A DNA stretch of 5,876 nucleotides, from NCBI GenBank assembly GCA_003353825.1, contig PIVW01000375.1:1-5876 (forward strand), given 5' to 3'. How positions within the stretch are numbered: position 1 is the stretch's first letter; each line of letters starts with the position of its first letter. Below are positions 481 through 5,797 of the stretch, piece by piece. The notes under the pieces were generated by a model. The model was not told the DNA's origin. It saw nothing but the letters and a program-made list of their open reading frames with translations, and searched no databases. Source of the DNA: Chloroflexota bacterium. GTDB taxonomy: Bacteria; Chloroflexota; Anaerolineae; J102. Position numbers and translations under genes: made by a program.

Positions 481-1311
481 TCAAAAACCTCGTAAATCAG
501 TGCTTTCACGTGGGGTGAGGCCCTCTTTGGGCAGGCGTTTGAGGACAACGTATTCGATACCATCGCTTTCACAAAATGCCCGTTTTTCGGGCACATCGCC
601 ATCTTCGTTTACAGCATAGATATCGGGTTGAATGACTGCGATCTCAGGCCCGGCATCCATCCAGCCGCTGCCGCTGGAGATCAAAGCCCGTTTGACAAAA
701 CGGATGGATTGTACCATGTAGCGACGCTCCTCCTCGGGAAAGAAGGGGTGCCCCTCGCCTTTCAACAAGCGCACGTTGGCATCGCTGCCGGCGACCACAT
801 AAAGATCGCCCAGTTCGGATGTTTCTTCAAAGAAGCGGACGTGTCCCGAATGAAACCAGTCATAGCACCCGGTGACGATTACTTTCTTGTTGCCAGATTC
901 TTCTCCGTTCACCTGTGCAGTTGAGAACCCGGCCAGATCGTGATCGGTTAGCATCACGAAGTCGATGTCGTTAGCTGAACAAAACACCCGTTTACTGCTA
1001 CTGTCATCCTTCTCAGGAACTACCCATATGTCGGGTTTGGGAGCATCGAGAGCGGCAAGGATGTTGGCATCGATGTGGTTCGAGATCAACGTCACTTGGT
1101 CGACATAACGGATGGACTCGAGCAGGTACAAGCGTTCTGGAGCCTGGAATTTGGGCGGTTGCCCAGTGCGGGTCCTCACGACCTCATCTGACCAGAGAAG
1201 GACGTGAACAAGGCCGATACTGGAGGCCTCTTGTAAAAAGCGCATGTGGTGCGATCTGATATCATCAAAACTGCCAGTTACGATGACTTGTTTCATAGGA
1301 ACTTGTTTCAC
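481..1311 (-). CDS. Tandem cytidylyltransferase-fold protein, first domain decayed
   Basis: This 276-residue protein has two copies of the cytidylyltransferase-like nucleotidylyltransferase fold (HxGH superfamily: TagD, HldE C-domain, ethanolamine-phosphate cytidylyltransferase). The second copy (about 143-276) looks active: VTGCYDWFHSGHVRF with HSGH at 154-157, the ERRYMVQSIR helix (195-204), and a C-terminal STDLR (270-274) matching the ISSTxxR nucleotide-binding motif. The first copy (about 8-134) aligns along its length (ERLYLLESIRYV 59-70 against ERRYMVQSIRFV 195-206; KRVFC 107-111 against KRAFC 243-247), but HxGH has become RSHH (19-22) and STxxR has become STAQV (130-134), so it is probably non-catalytic. 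The product is likely an NDP-linked sugar or polyol; nucleotide and substrate cannot be read from sequence. Pairing with the GHMP kinase 12 bp upstream suggests a kinase-then-activation route. The start is GTG at 1311, supported by AAGGAAG 6 nt upstream; an ATG at 1296 lacks such a site. Confidence 0.85.
   Translation of the reverse strand: MKQVPMKQVIVTGSFDDIRSHHMRFLQEASSIGLVHVLLWSDEVVRTRTGQPPKFQAPERLYLLESIRYVDQVTLISNHIDANILAALDAPKPDIWVVPEKDDSSSKRVFCSANDIDFVMLTDHDLAGFSTAQVNGEESGNKKVIVTGCYDWFHSGHVRFFEETSELGDLYVVAGSDANVRLLKGEGHPFFPEEERRYMVQSIRFVKRALISSGSGWMDAGPEIAVIQPDIYAVNEDGDVPEKRAFCESDGIEYVVLKRLPKEGLTPRESTDLRGF
488..491 (-). promoter_or_regulatory. Ribosome binding site of manC
   Basis: On the minus strand GAGG lies 7 nt before the manC ATG and within the last codons of the nucleotidylyltransferase gene. 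It fixes the start at 480 and fits coupled translation across the TGA-ATG junction. Confidence 0.6.
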
Positions 1312-1317
1312 AGTTCG

Positions 1318-1324
1318 CTTCCTT
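1318..1324 (-). promoter_or_regulatory. Ribosome binding site that decides a GTG start
   Basis: On the minus strand AAGGAAG ends 6 nt before the GTG at 1311 and overlaps the final base of the kinase TAA stop. The in-frame ATG at 1296, which begins the same MKQV peptide a second time, has no such site. The GTG is therefore preferred. Confidence 0.65.
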
Positions 1325-2121
1325 TACGGCTCGGCCCGAACATTGACCTGAAAGCCACCGGGCACAGGCTCATTGGCGACCACATAAATGTAGCCACCAC
1401 CGCAACCGGAATACATGGCGCCGGGGTAGCGGGACTGATAATAGCCAAGAATACCCATGAGGTCCACCGAGAGGGTCTGGTGTTGTACGGTGTGGGGAAG
1501 AATGGTCTCCCAGCATGTCATGCATTCGTTCATTGATTGGCCCAGAGCAGCAGCATCCATGTGGACGATGGCGTTGTAGCAATCATTGCCCGTTTGCCCC
1601 AGTCGTGCAATCCAGGCCGGATCCAGGTTCTTTATTCCCAAAGGATTGTATCCTGGCGGACGCTGAGCGATGGGAACGATGTAGATCAGCTGCTGTAACC
1701 ATCGTGCTACCTCCGGGCTATTGCAAGATTCGACGTGAACGGGGAAGTAGCCTCCTTCGTGTTCAAAATCGAAATCCAGGCGATTGATGCCAGGATAGAT
1801 CAGGCCTGCCATATCCTGAGCACCGGAGGGCTCTGCCAGATCTTTGTTTTCAGCCTCGTAGAGTTCGCGCACCAGCATAGCAGGATCGCCTGCGGGTAAA
1901 CCATGCGGCCATAGTTTTGTTGCGATCTTGCGGGTACTGGTGCCCATACCGCAACGGTCCATGAAACGGCAAGTCGCCTCTATGGCCACCACAACCATCG
2001 AGCCAGGGGGCGACGGATTATGCTGGGAGAGAAGGGGTTGGTCGATCCAGCCACCCGCAAAGGCCATACGATAGGGGAAAGGGCCTATGATGTCTGTAAT
2101 GGTTTGTGTGGGTTGATCCAT
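1324..2121 (-). CDS. GHMP-family sugar kinase, short HddA-like form
   Basis: The 265-residue product carries the three GHMP kinase signatures: motif 1 PYRMAFAGGWID (16-27), a variant phosphate-binding loop DRCGMGTSTR (55-64, where GLGSSS is usual), and motif 3 GAMYSGCGGGYIYVV (234-248). SGAQDMAGLIYPGINRLDF (99-117) matches the GxQDxxxxxxGGxNxxxF segment of HddA-type heptose 7-phosphate kinases and fucokinases; D103 would be the catalytic base. Such enzymes transfer phosphate from ATP to a sugar, often at C1, in the cytoplasm. The protein is shorter than HddA (about 340 residues); the stretch between motifs 1 and 2 seems reduced. It lies 12 bp before the nucleotidylyltransferase gene, whose substrate it may make. 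The start is ATG at 2121. No Shine-Dalgarno site is visible because a tandem repeat begins 10 bp upstream, and an in-frame TGA at 2151-2149 prevents long extension. The substrate is unknown. Confidence 0.85.
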   Translation of the reverse strand: MDQPTQTITDIIGPFPYRMAFAGGWIDQPLLSQHNPSPPGSMVVVAIEATCRFMDRCGMGTSTRKIATKLWPHGLPAGDPAMLVRELYEAENKDLAEPSGAQDMAGLIYPGINRLDFDFEHEGGYFPVHVESCNSPEVARWLQQLIYIVPIAQRPPGYNPLGIKNLDPAWIARLGQTGNDCYNAIVHMDAAALGQSMNECMTCWETILPHTVQHQTLSVDLMGILGYYQSRYPGAMYSGCGGGYIYVVANEPVPGGFQVNVRAEP

Positions 2122-2212: not shown

Positions 2213-2247
2213 ATCTCCAATCTCCAATCGCTAATCTTCAATCTTCA
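2199..2247. repeat. Tandem heptamer repeat, ATCTCCA-type x7
   Basis: Seven 7-bp units run from 2199 to 2247: atctccg, three copies of atctcca, atcgcta, and two copies of atcttca. The array stops one base from the epimerase TAG (2251-2249). Its period equals that of the unrelated GGTGTCA array 33 bp away, so the 127-bp gap is made almost entirely of two heptamer families with a hairpin between them. Confidence 0.92.
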
Positions 2248-2248
2248 A

Positions 2249-3301
2249 CTACTTCTCATCAGCGGCGGGCGTGGGCAAACCGGCTGCTCGATCGGCGTAT
2301 TGTTGTTTGATCCAGTTGTACGTTTGTTCCATACCATCGCGCAGGGGCAGGTCAGGCTCCCAGCCCAACACTTGCTTGATGAAGGTGTTATCGCTGTTGC
2401 GTCCGGCCACACCTCGGGGAGCATCCAGCCTGTATTCTCGCTCCAACTCGACGCCGGCGATATCTTCGACCATGCTCACCAAGTCGTTGATAGAAATCAG
2501 TTCGCTGGATCCGAGATTGATGGGTGTGGCGATCAACTCATCGCAGTGGCTGATCATGTCTATGCCCTTAGTACAGTCGTCGATGAACATGAAACTGCGG
2601 GTCTGCACACCGTCACCCCAGATATCGATCTCCATTACACCACTTTCTTGGGCTTCGATTACCTTGCGCGTGAGTGCTGCTGGGGCTTTTTCACGCCCAC
2701 CATCCCAACTGCCGTAGGGGCCGTAGACATTGTGGAATCGGGCGATGAAAGTCTTCATTTTGCGCTCAGCCCAATACTCTTGGCAGAAGATCTCAGACAT
2801 CAGTTTCTCCCAACCATAGCCTCGCTCGGCATTGGCGGGATAGGCATCAGTTTCTTTGAGCGCCCGCACATTGGGGTCCTGTTGCAGATCGATATTATAG
2901 GCGCAGGCCGAGGAGGAGAAGAAATAGCGGTCGACGCCTGCCTCGTAAGAGGCTTGTAGCAAATGTGTGTTGATGAGGATGCTGCGCAGACATTCGACCC
3001 GGAAGTTCTCGATGAACCCCATACCACCCATATCGGCCGCCAGGTTGTAAACTTCGACAGCGCCTTCGACAGCACGATGGCAGTTGTTACGATATTCCAG
3101 GTCGAGACAGAGACTTTCGACGCCGGACACCCGCTGGTACCATTTATAAAGAGGCTTCTTATCAACAGCGCGGATATTGGTAAAGCCCTGATCGGCAAAG
3201 TATTTTGTCAGAGCTCCGGCAATGAATCCGCCGGCCCCGGCGATGACGATCAAGTCATCTTTGTTTCTCATACTGGCTGCAGTGGGATTGTTGAGGGCCA
3301 T
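2249..3301 (-). CDS. gme: GDP-mannose 3,5-epimerase
   Basis: This 350-residue extended short-chain dehydrogenase/reductase closely resembles plant GDP-mannose 3,5-epimerase, which uses bound NAD to convert GDP-D-mannose to GDP-L-galactose and GDP-L-gulose. The NAD site is AGAGGFIAG (21-29), with Ala in place of the third Gly as in plant GME. Diagnostic blocks are NLAADMGGMGFI (86-97), SSSACAY (129-135), YGWEK (162-166), RFHNVYGP (188-195), GGREKAPAA (201-209), WGDGVQTRSF (228-237) and RNSDN (301-305). The catalytic residues of Arabidopsis GME (C145, Y174, K178, K217) correspond to C133, Y162, K166 and K205, at a constant offset of 12. The length fits the family (about 340-380). The start at ATG 3301 is backed by AGGAA 9 nt upstream; the second Met (3271) has none. 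It begins the sugar operon that ends with manC, which provides its substrate. Whether the main product is L-galactose or L-gulose cannot be told from sequence. Confidence 0.93.
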   Translation of the reverse strand: MALNNPTAASMRNKDDLIVIAGAGGFIAGALTKYFADQGFTNIRAVDKKPLYKWYQRVSGVESLCLDLEYRNNCHRAVEGAVEVYNLAADMGGMGFIENFRVECLRSILINTHLLQASYEAGVDRYFFSSSACAYNIDLQQDPNVRALKETDAYPANAERGYGWEKLMSEIFCQEYWAERKMKTFIARFHNVYGPYGSWDGGREKAPAALTRKVIEAQESGVMEIDIWGDGVQTRSFMFIDDCTKGIDMISHCDELIATPINLGSSELISINDLVSMVEDIAGVELEREYRLDAPRGVAGRNSDNTFIKQVLGWEPDLPLRDGMEQTYNWIKQQYADRAAGLPTPAADEK

Positions 3302-4759: not shown

Positions 4760-5797
4760 TTACTGAGGCGCGTGAATGGTCGAATCTGGATAAAAGTCCA
4801 GCCATACCCAATCGTACGAACTGAGACTCGGAACCTGATGTAGGATCTGGCCCTCGTATTCACCCGACAACGCCTGCCCTCTCGCCACATCCCAAACCGA
4901 CCCCGTTTCCTGATCGACAAGGTTTTCCCCATCCCACCTAAAAGTCAACACCTGATCGCCCACTTGCCTGAGATAGGCGTGGTAGTTTTTCTCTTCAGCC
5001 CATACCAAAACCGGCAAATCATCCAGCATGTCGTTGATTACCCCGGCCTGCAATACATAGGGAGACCCGTAGGCTTTGGCCTTGCCTTCGATAACCAACC
5101 CGATCACGAAATTCTGTTTGAAGTCGGGCCGAAAGAGCGGGTCAAAGCCACCGATGCCATTGGTCATCGCCAGAGATTCGGGATGCTGTTGTTTCCACTG
5201 GCCCCAGGTTGTCAGTTGCGAGGGTAGCAAGAACAGCTCGGTGCCTTTGAGTTCACCACGGATGGTCCTACCCCAGGGCTGAGACCAGATGGAGTTAGTG
5301 CTGTGATCCCACCAGGTCATGGCGTTCATGAATAGACCGCCGGCATTGCCGAATACTTCGGTTTTGCCATCAATCGTTCGGTCGTGCACGAAACCGGTGC
5401 AGCAAATCGGTCACCAGGTGACGAGGATCGGTGTCCCCCCCAATTCATCATTGACCATCTCCCGACCACGCAAAACCGAGATCGGATACGCTTTTGATTC
5501 GCCATCGATGCTGACGGCGATTACGAGTTCATCGTCGTGGAAGGGTGATTCCGCAGCTGTTACGAAAACAGGCTCGTAGATAGGAAGAATCCCGTCCCTG
5601 TTAACGAGGAAGTTAAAGTAGTAGGAATTGTCATCTTCGATTCTAGGGTTGGCGCCTTCGGGGCGAGGTTGTGTTGGCACTACGACGCTTGTTGCAGTGG
5701 ATTGCGGGGGCGTTGTGGGTGCGCTGTCACTGCCGCACGCCACCAGGATCAGGGAGGTGACCAGGAGGATTGTCGGGAGATAGAAACGTGAGATCAT
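4760..5797 (-). CDS. DUF3179 lipoprotein with in-frame TGA (candidate selenoprotein or nonsense-interrupted gene)
   Basis: Read through one TGA (residue 129), the frame encodes 345 residues ending at TAA 4762-4760. Residues 1-21 form a lipoprotein signal with lipobox LVAC (18-21), followed by a Ser/Thr/Pro-rich linker (to about 50), so the protein should be anchored outside the membrane. The rest matches DUF3179: VIAVSIDGESKAYPISVL (92-109), VNDELGGTPILVTW (115-128), then [TGA]-P-I-C-C-T-G, where the family has C-P-x-C, and FGNAGGLFMN, SIWSQPWG and LPSQLTTW further on. The second half repeats the module in degenerate form (VIGLVIEGKAKAYGSPYVL, VINDMLDDLPVLVW) without Cys. The TGA replaces the first Cys of the CxxC-like pair, and downstream conservation shows no decay or frameshift. 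Neither this alignment nor the sequence alone separates Sec insertion from a point nonsense mutation or read error. An internal GTG at 5389 could start a 209-residue fragment, but this would begin inside the domain. DUF3179's biochemical function is not established. It appears to be a separate unit from the sugar genes. Confidence 0.85.
5379..5401 (-). promoter_or_regulatory. Possible bacterial SECIS-like hairpins after the TGA
   Basis: Two mutually exclusive small hairpins follow the TGA on the minus strand. The first pairs CGGU with ACCG, then after a UU bulge CG with CG, closing a UGCA loop (5396-5379; loop 23-26 nt past the TGA). The second pairs UGCAC with GUGCA around CGGUUUC (5401-5385). 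Bacterial SECIS elements need a short stem-loop about 16-37 nt past the UGA with a G in the first two loop bases; E. coli fdhF also has a bulged U. Both hairpins fit loosely. Pairing was done by hand and such short stems occur often by chance. Confidence 0.35.
5411..5413 (-). other. In-frame TGA at a conserved Cys position, putative selenocysteine codon
   Basis: The minus strand reads TGG-TGA-CCG-ATT-TGC-TGC. In DUF3179 proteins the residues after V-T-(Y/F/W) are C-P-(L/I/V)-C, so this TGA stands for the first Cys. The same contig uses TGA as an ordinary stop after lacI (3504-3502) and after the nucleotidylyltransferase (483-481), and codes Trp with TGG, so a reassigned genetic code is unlikely. 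Confidence 0.55.

Follow-up and report, generated by a model that had tools for sequence, protein, structure and literature searches.

Does an in-frame TGA codon in a gene of the DUF3179 family encode selenocysteine (Sec), or does it end or disrupt the gene? The gene is located on the minus strand of a 5,876-nucleotide stretch of Chloroflexota DNA, hereafter named the window, and spans 345 codons plus a TAA stop codon when the TGA is read as Sec (4760..5797, minus strand). The first-pass annotation had proposed that a single TGA interrupts this frame and that it replaces the first Cys of a C-P-x-C motif. Both statements were borne out. The TGA at window positions 5413-5411 (5411..5413, minus strand) is the sole internal stop of the frame running from 5797 to 4760; it corresponds to codon 129, where it generates a U-P-I-C motif, and it aligns with the first Cys of the C-P-x-C motif in the Cys-containing homologues.

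Pfam assigned the bridged frame to DUF3179 (PF11376; 5.3e-59) over two stretches, and with a score of 200.5 bits against a curated cut-off of 27 the protein is a member of this family. A putative signal peptide and lipobox are encoded at the start of the gene (5732..5797, minus strand); the L-V-A-C sequence with Cys at residue 21 is what we take to be the lipobox of a putative lipoprotein-type signal. Apart from the TGA, the whole frame contains Cys codons only at positions 21 (lipobox), 132 and 133. The Cys133 codon (window 5399-5401, minus strand) is an oddity: of the 47 aligned TGA sequences, all 46 apart from the window bear Tyr or Phe at this position, so that U-P-I-C-C is peculiar to the window within that set. 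A mechanical listing of open reading frames contains a 209-amino-acid ORF starting at a GTG codon (4760..5389, minus strand), which we interpret as the C-terminal portion of the DUF3179 protein.

On the basis of the analyses described below, we estimate a probability of roughly 0.9 that the window gene encodes an exported DUF3179 lipoprotein that is a selenoprotein, with UGA codon 129 decoded as Sec. Insertion at this codon would be performed by tRNA-Sec and SelB, and would be directed by a hairpin that begins 14 nt past the UGA and whose loop lies at a distance of 19 nt from it. We infer that Sec is incorporated in this organism and that the product is exported; the resulting lipoprotein, which has two repeats, would carry the selenol/thiol pair of U-P-I-C in the first of them and would presumably act in extracytoplasmic thiol/selenol redox chemistry.

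The TGA codon is conserved and is followed by sequence under protein-level constraint

A scan at one genome per species yielded 15 loci containing relatives of the window gene (37-87% identical over the best segment), three of which (L002, L003 and L005) were caught by a wider motif scan. The nearest relatives are metagenome-assembled genomes (MAGs) of Chloroflexota. In tblastn searches, the best match at each of the 15 loci has a stop at the position of codon 129, and at the DNA level the codon at the Sec site is TGA in 15/15 loci, which is the conservation that a selenoprotein should show. The expectation that close relatives would all have Cys if the TGA were spurious therefore fails, which supports the proposal that Sec takes the place of the first Cys. 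Homologues with Cys at residue 129 also exist, as for instance in P0003-P0006, a group that is about 50% identical, so that the homologue search suggested by the first-pass annotation returned both forms.

The nearest relative, L001, comes from a different MAG, is 87% identical and has the same TGA. Comparing the window gene with L001 gave a dN/dS of 0.18 upstream of the TGA and 0.09 downstream of it, so the constraint on the protein is at least as strong after the TGA as before it, and the claim that coding continues past this codon holds. The sequence shared between the 11-kb L001 locus and the window is limited to the gene and 65 upstream bases.

These results bear directly on the possibility that the window contains an ordinary Cys gene inactivated by a nonsense mutation, or one in which a base was called wrongly. 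Two features would fit such a pseudogene: none of the 25 further TGA sequences in the set analyzed first has Cys133 or Phe136, two residues close to the TGA, and the hairpin of the window gene is weak. However, all 15 relatives have the same TGA, and one of them, in another MAG at 87% identity, shows low dN/dS on both sides of it. Since the identical TGA is present in independent assemblies, the concern about base calling is mostly answered, and this alternative, which had been raised at the outset, is largely refuted; we regard it as very unlikely.

Genomes of relatives contain the Sec machinery

All four parts of the Sec machinery were clearly present in 9 of the 15 relatives' genomes, and at least one part in 14 of them. 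A tRNA-Sec scoring above 60 bits was found in 11/15 genomes, and ARAGORN reported a tRNA-SeC in 8/8 loci submitted from these 15 genomes. We counted tRNA-Sec at >60 bits plus ARAGORN, and not at the Rfam cut-off of 47 bits, which is too loose here because it is exceeded at two or three places in several genomes; the surplus places are presumably tRNA-Ser. SelB exceeded its cut-off in 12/15 genomes and SelA was present in 10/15. SelD was found in 13/15 genomes (in G002 as a gene in two pieces). Each of these 13 genes (e.g. L040-L047) has a single in-frame TGA of unassigned position, which makes it probable that SelD is a selenoprotein here as well.

In the MAG of the nearest relative (G001), tRNA-Sec and SelA are clear; in a profile-type search of this MAG no SelB exceeded its cut-off and SelD was not found. 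Genome G015, which has a DUF3179 gene with TGA, showed no clear part of the Sec machinery, its tRNA-Sec match reaching 53.4 bits. Of 17 genomes that contribute a TGA row to the matches listed, 14 have SelA, as do 246/298 genomes across the class. As it is already frequent in the class, its presence is permissive evidence without enrichment, and we discarded it as an uninformative association test.

The Sec machinery of the relatives, together with codon usage in the window, is also relevant to the idea that UGA is decoded as another amino acid, for instance by a Trp or Gly recoding. The frame would indeed be open under such codes. Nevertheless, two other genes of the window, those for LacI and the cytidylyltransferase, terminate with TGA and the DUF3179 gene contains 12 TGG codons, from which it follows that TGA is no general sense codon here; moreover, homologues lacking the TGA have Cys at the site, and the relatives possess the machinery for Sec. 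Recoding to another amino acid is extremely unlikely.

An RNA element follows the TGA in TGA genes

The first-pass annotation had noticed loosely SECIS-like hairpins behind the TGA. In the window gene, a SECIS-like hairpin is located at 5379..5396 (minus strand, 5396-5379 in reading direction), with a stem of 5 bp (CGGUU/GACCG, including one G-U pair) and an 8-nt loop, UCGUGCAC. Its folding energy is -4.1 kcal/mol within its own 20 nt; an alternative fold of the 42-nt stretch after the TGA is better (-6.9 kcal/mol). Judged against synonymous shuffles, these 42 nt have a z of +0.15 and are unremarkable on their own, and the hairpin of L001 is likewise weak (z +0.49); that of L003 is stronger than the window's. 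Two stem positions distinguish the window from L001, pairing being kept each time via a G-U pair. The bSECIS model, as given in the Figure 2 legend of PMC13188914, specifies a loop of 3-9 nt, a stem of 4-16 bp and a spacing of 16-37 nt, and further demands a G in loop positions 1-2 and an MFE of -7.5 or lower; the same paper states that some SECIS elements lie outside the model. With respect to these limits, the stem, loop size and spacing of the window hairpin fit, but its energy and G position do not. An Rfam scan of the window gave no match.

The signal becomes clear as a pattern of the family. An RNA element after the TGA is kept in the TGA genes and is hardly ever present in the Cys genes. 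The comparison set was drawn entirely from fetched loci and, with identical stretches counted once, comprised 47 TGA and 36 Cys sequences; three chance matches (codons GTG, GCG and AAA) were excluded, and L096 and L114 are outside these counts. Against shuffles that keep the protein, the mean energy z was -1.41 for the TGA and -0.04 for the Cys sequences (Mann-Whitney 2e-7), p-values being optimistic here because the sequences compared are kin. A z under -1.5 was obtained for 25/47 TGA sequences versus 4/36 Cys sequences. Using a stem criterion that was chosen after inspecting the sequences, namely GU within a 4-9 nt loop that is closed by 5 bp or more and lies in the expected range, we found the element in 41/47 TGA sequences (10.0 expected) and in 1/36 Cys sequences (6.8 expected). 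Val137, the codon in the loop, is GTG in 44/46 TGA genes compared with 4 of the 26 Cys genes bearing Val at this position. The published rule for stem, G and spacing by itself separates TGA from Cys genes poorly: it selects 37/47 TGA and 28/36 Cys sequences with stems of 4 bp or more, and 27/47 and 10/36, respectively, with 5 bp or more.

When the first 26 TGA sequences were pooled, column-wise analysis revealed no double-sided change, which is explained by the existence of two subgroups that pair in registers one base apart; RNAalifold on the same 26 sequences proposed a different stem of 3 pairs. The TGA sequences with Tyr138 (18 sequences, 17 distinct) form a 7-bp stem in which 97.5% of cells are paired and in which 4/7 pairs show double-sided changes; neither the pairing nor the double-sided score was reached by any of 500 shuffles (0/500), a covariation result that is partly post hoc since the sequences had been viewed before they were divided by residue 138. 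The double-sided changes convert G-C into U-A, A-U or C-G, and C-G into G-U. Some of them alter amino acids, and the five cells concerned come from four rows (L109, L119, L120 and L122). In the same columns of 10 Cys genes with Tyr138, 44.3% of cells are paired. The other 29 TGA sequences (27 distinct), which include the window, form a 6-bp stem with 87.7% of cells paired, and double-sided changes were present in 0/6 pairs of this subgroup. Thus, of the earlier hairpin claim, the 5-bp stem and its recurrence in the family stand, while the window hairpin taken alone is unremarkable and misses two of the bSECIS limits.

Sec and Cys have been exchanged repeatedly at the same site

The Cys-containing DUF3179 proteins belong to the same family as the window gene and have C-P-x-C at the same place; they differ in having a TGC or TGT codon and in the near absence of the hairpin signal (1/36). 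A quick maximum-likelihood tree was constructed from 91 sequences with the Sec site masked, omitting the TGA row of L061, which is too short. At least nine Sec/Cys changes are required on this tree, six of which are forced by starred branches, compared with a mean of 30.7 after shuffling. The half of the tree containing the window has 24 Sec and 13 Cys sequences, with several Cys groups among the Sec groups, although support is not strong for all of them. Near the window, Sec seems to be the more common of the two forms, these frequencies not being population estimates because the sequences were sampled as best matches to a Sec query.

Two loci contain three tandem DUF3179 genes each, with site codons TGC, TGC and TGA (L007:2362-5888) and TGC, TGT and TGA (L009:2333-5900). 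Sec/Cys swaps at one site, in these two loci even in tandem, constitute a natural series for studying what selenium contributes to an extracytoplasmic redox pair. Two unusual cases were also observed. At about 1850-1880 of L096, a DUF3179 gene has two in-frame TGA codons, of which one is at the Sec site and the other where relatives have Gly, which may reflect a decaying gene or an error. A divergent DUF3179 gene in L114 (1504-2586) has its stop codon in a U-I-R-C context instead of U-P-x-C.

The way databases record this family raises the question of whether translation really ends at the UGA, the 209-residue piece being a separate protein translated from the GTG. Among the best 120 of 444 protein matches, 108 begin directly past the Sec codon (including the window's own entry, P0002), nine are full-length with Cys at the site, and three start elsewhere; the 108 entries, as well as the near invariance of the GTG in TGA genes (44/46), would agree with a split gene. 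On the other hand, this GTG sits in the loop of the hairpin, whose stem shows compensatory changes in one subgroup, and repeat 1 would be divided between two proteins if the gene were split. Furthermore, Cys homologues consist of one continuous chain (the nine listed, and genome rows free of an internal stop), and the tree intermingles Sec with Cys forms. We therefore consider a split gene highly improbable, and a single selenoprotein chain as the preferred reading. Gene calling appears to split DUF3179: removing P0002 leaves 107 of 119 listed relatives among these best matches recorded as downstream pieces, their DNA codons being unchecked, and as they are annotated from past the Sec site, the family is probably widely mis-annotated.

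DUF3179 consists of two repeats and may have a Rieske-like fold

The DUF3179 protein contains two homologous repeats; the U-P-I-C pair is in repeat 1 and repeat 2 has no such pair. Tentatively, the fold may be Rieske-like, lacking the Rieske ligands. In the comparison with solved Rieske domains (e.g. 5bok), nearly all listed rows cover repeat 2 and not the repeat containing U-P-x-C. The Rieske comparison set comprised 18 sequences selected from PF00355 loci by ligand pattern, about three of which look like chance frames. At the sequence level, the window protein has no match to Rieske-fold proteins such as the Rieske ferredoxin 5bok, the Pfam Rieske profile, with E-values as high as 1 allowed, matched none of the 40 members aligned, and a sequence search of the PDB found no relative, yielding one unrelated-looking match (E 0.84). 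Single-sequence structure prediction of the window protein gave a pLDDT of 35.6 and no usable model.

The [2Fe-2S] cluster of Rieske proteins is bound by the ligands C-x-H ... C-x-x-H. We rejected the window protein as a Rieske [2Fe-2S] protein, because these ligands are impossible with Cys only at 21, 132 and 133, plus U129. A more speculative and rather doubtful idea is that the DUF3179 selenoproteins are a tandem-duplicated, cluster-less Rieske derivative in which the U-P-x-C pair replaces the metal centre, with Sec and Cys often swapped in Chloroflexota. If true, this would be a redox lipoprotein built on a Rieske-type fold, a fold that to our knowledge is not known for selenol/thiol redox chemistry.

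Relation to the known DUF3179 selenoprotein family

The first-pass annotation implied that DUF3179 was new as a selenoprotein, but the family had already been predicted. Table 1 of PMC9312934 lists the DUF3179 domain-containing protein (PF11376, UxxC/T) as a predicted selenoprotein family and credits the entry to the study of a gutless-worm symbiont by Zhang & Gladyshev 2007 (its reference 63). A table in PMC13188914 likewise has DUF3179 among prokaryotic selenoproteins (its reference 60), and in the accessible part of PMC9230427 a DUF3179 protein appears in a table only. The window gene shares with this listed family the Pfam domain and a Sec site in UxxC; relative to these table entries, the Chloroflexota relatives, the SECIS covariation and the Sec/Cys exchange were measured here. 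The word "Chloroflexi" is absent from the texts of PMC9312934 and PMC13188914, and "Chloroflexota" from that of PMC13188914. In the portions of the DUF3179/PF11376 literature available, no description of a Chloroflexota group or of a fold was found, and no literature pairing DUF3179 with Rieske was found either. What is new is the breadth of the family in Chloroflexota, the repeated Sec/Cys exchange, the internal repeat and the tentative Rieske-like fold. DUF3179, of "unknown function" in Pfam, thereby gains a site that can be tested and, tentatively, a fold.

Neighbouring genes and other features

The neighbours of the DUF3179 gene in six relatives (20 proteins, a subset of the ORFs) revealed no common function. 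A gene for isocitrate/isopropylmalate dehydrogenase is located near DUF3179 in two of the six (L014 and L009), and in L014 (510-10933) DUF3179 lies amid genes for citrate synthase, a PEP mutase/isocitrate lyase-like protein, MmgE/PrpD, isocitrate dehydrogenase and aconitase. In L001, an ORF matching the streptomycin adenylyltransferase family (2233-3099, plus strand; PF04439, 4e-109) lies about 2 kb away from DUF3179.

Elsewhere in the window, the 265-amino-acid ORF at 1324-2121 (minus strand) has no match in Pfam or NCBIfam; its C-terminal glycine-rich stretch resembles GHMP kinases, which we take as a putative assignment. The gene at 481-1311 (minus strand), located beside genes of sugar-nucleotide type, encodes a protein of two cytidylyltransferase-like halves, the first with R-S-H-H and the second with H-S-G-H, the latter presumably being the H-x-G-H motif. 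Finally, two arrays of 7-bp tandem repeats are located between two genes of the window, TCAGGTG repeated 7.3 times at 2121-2171 and CAATCTC repeated 7.4 times at 2197-2248.
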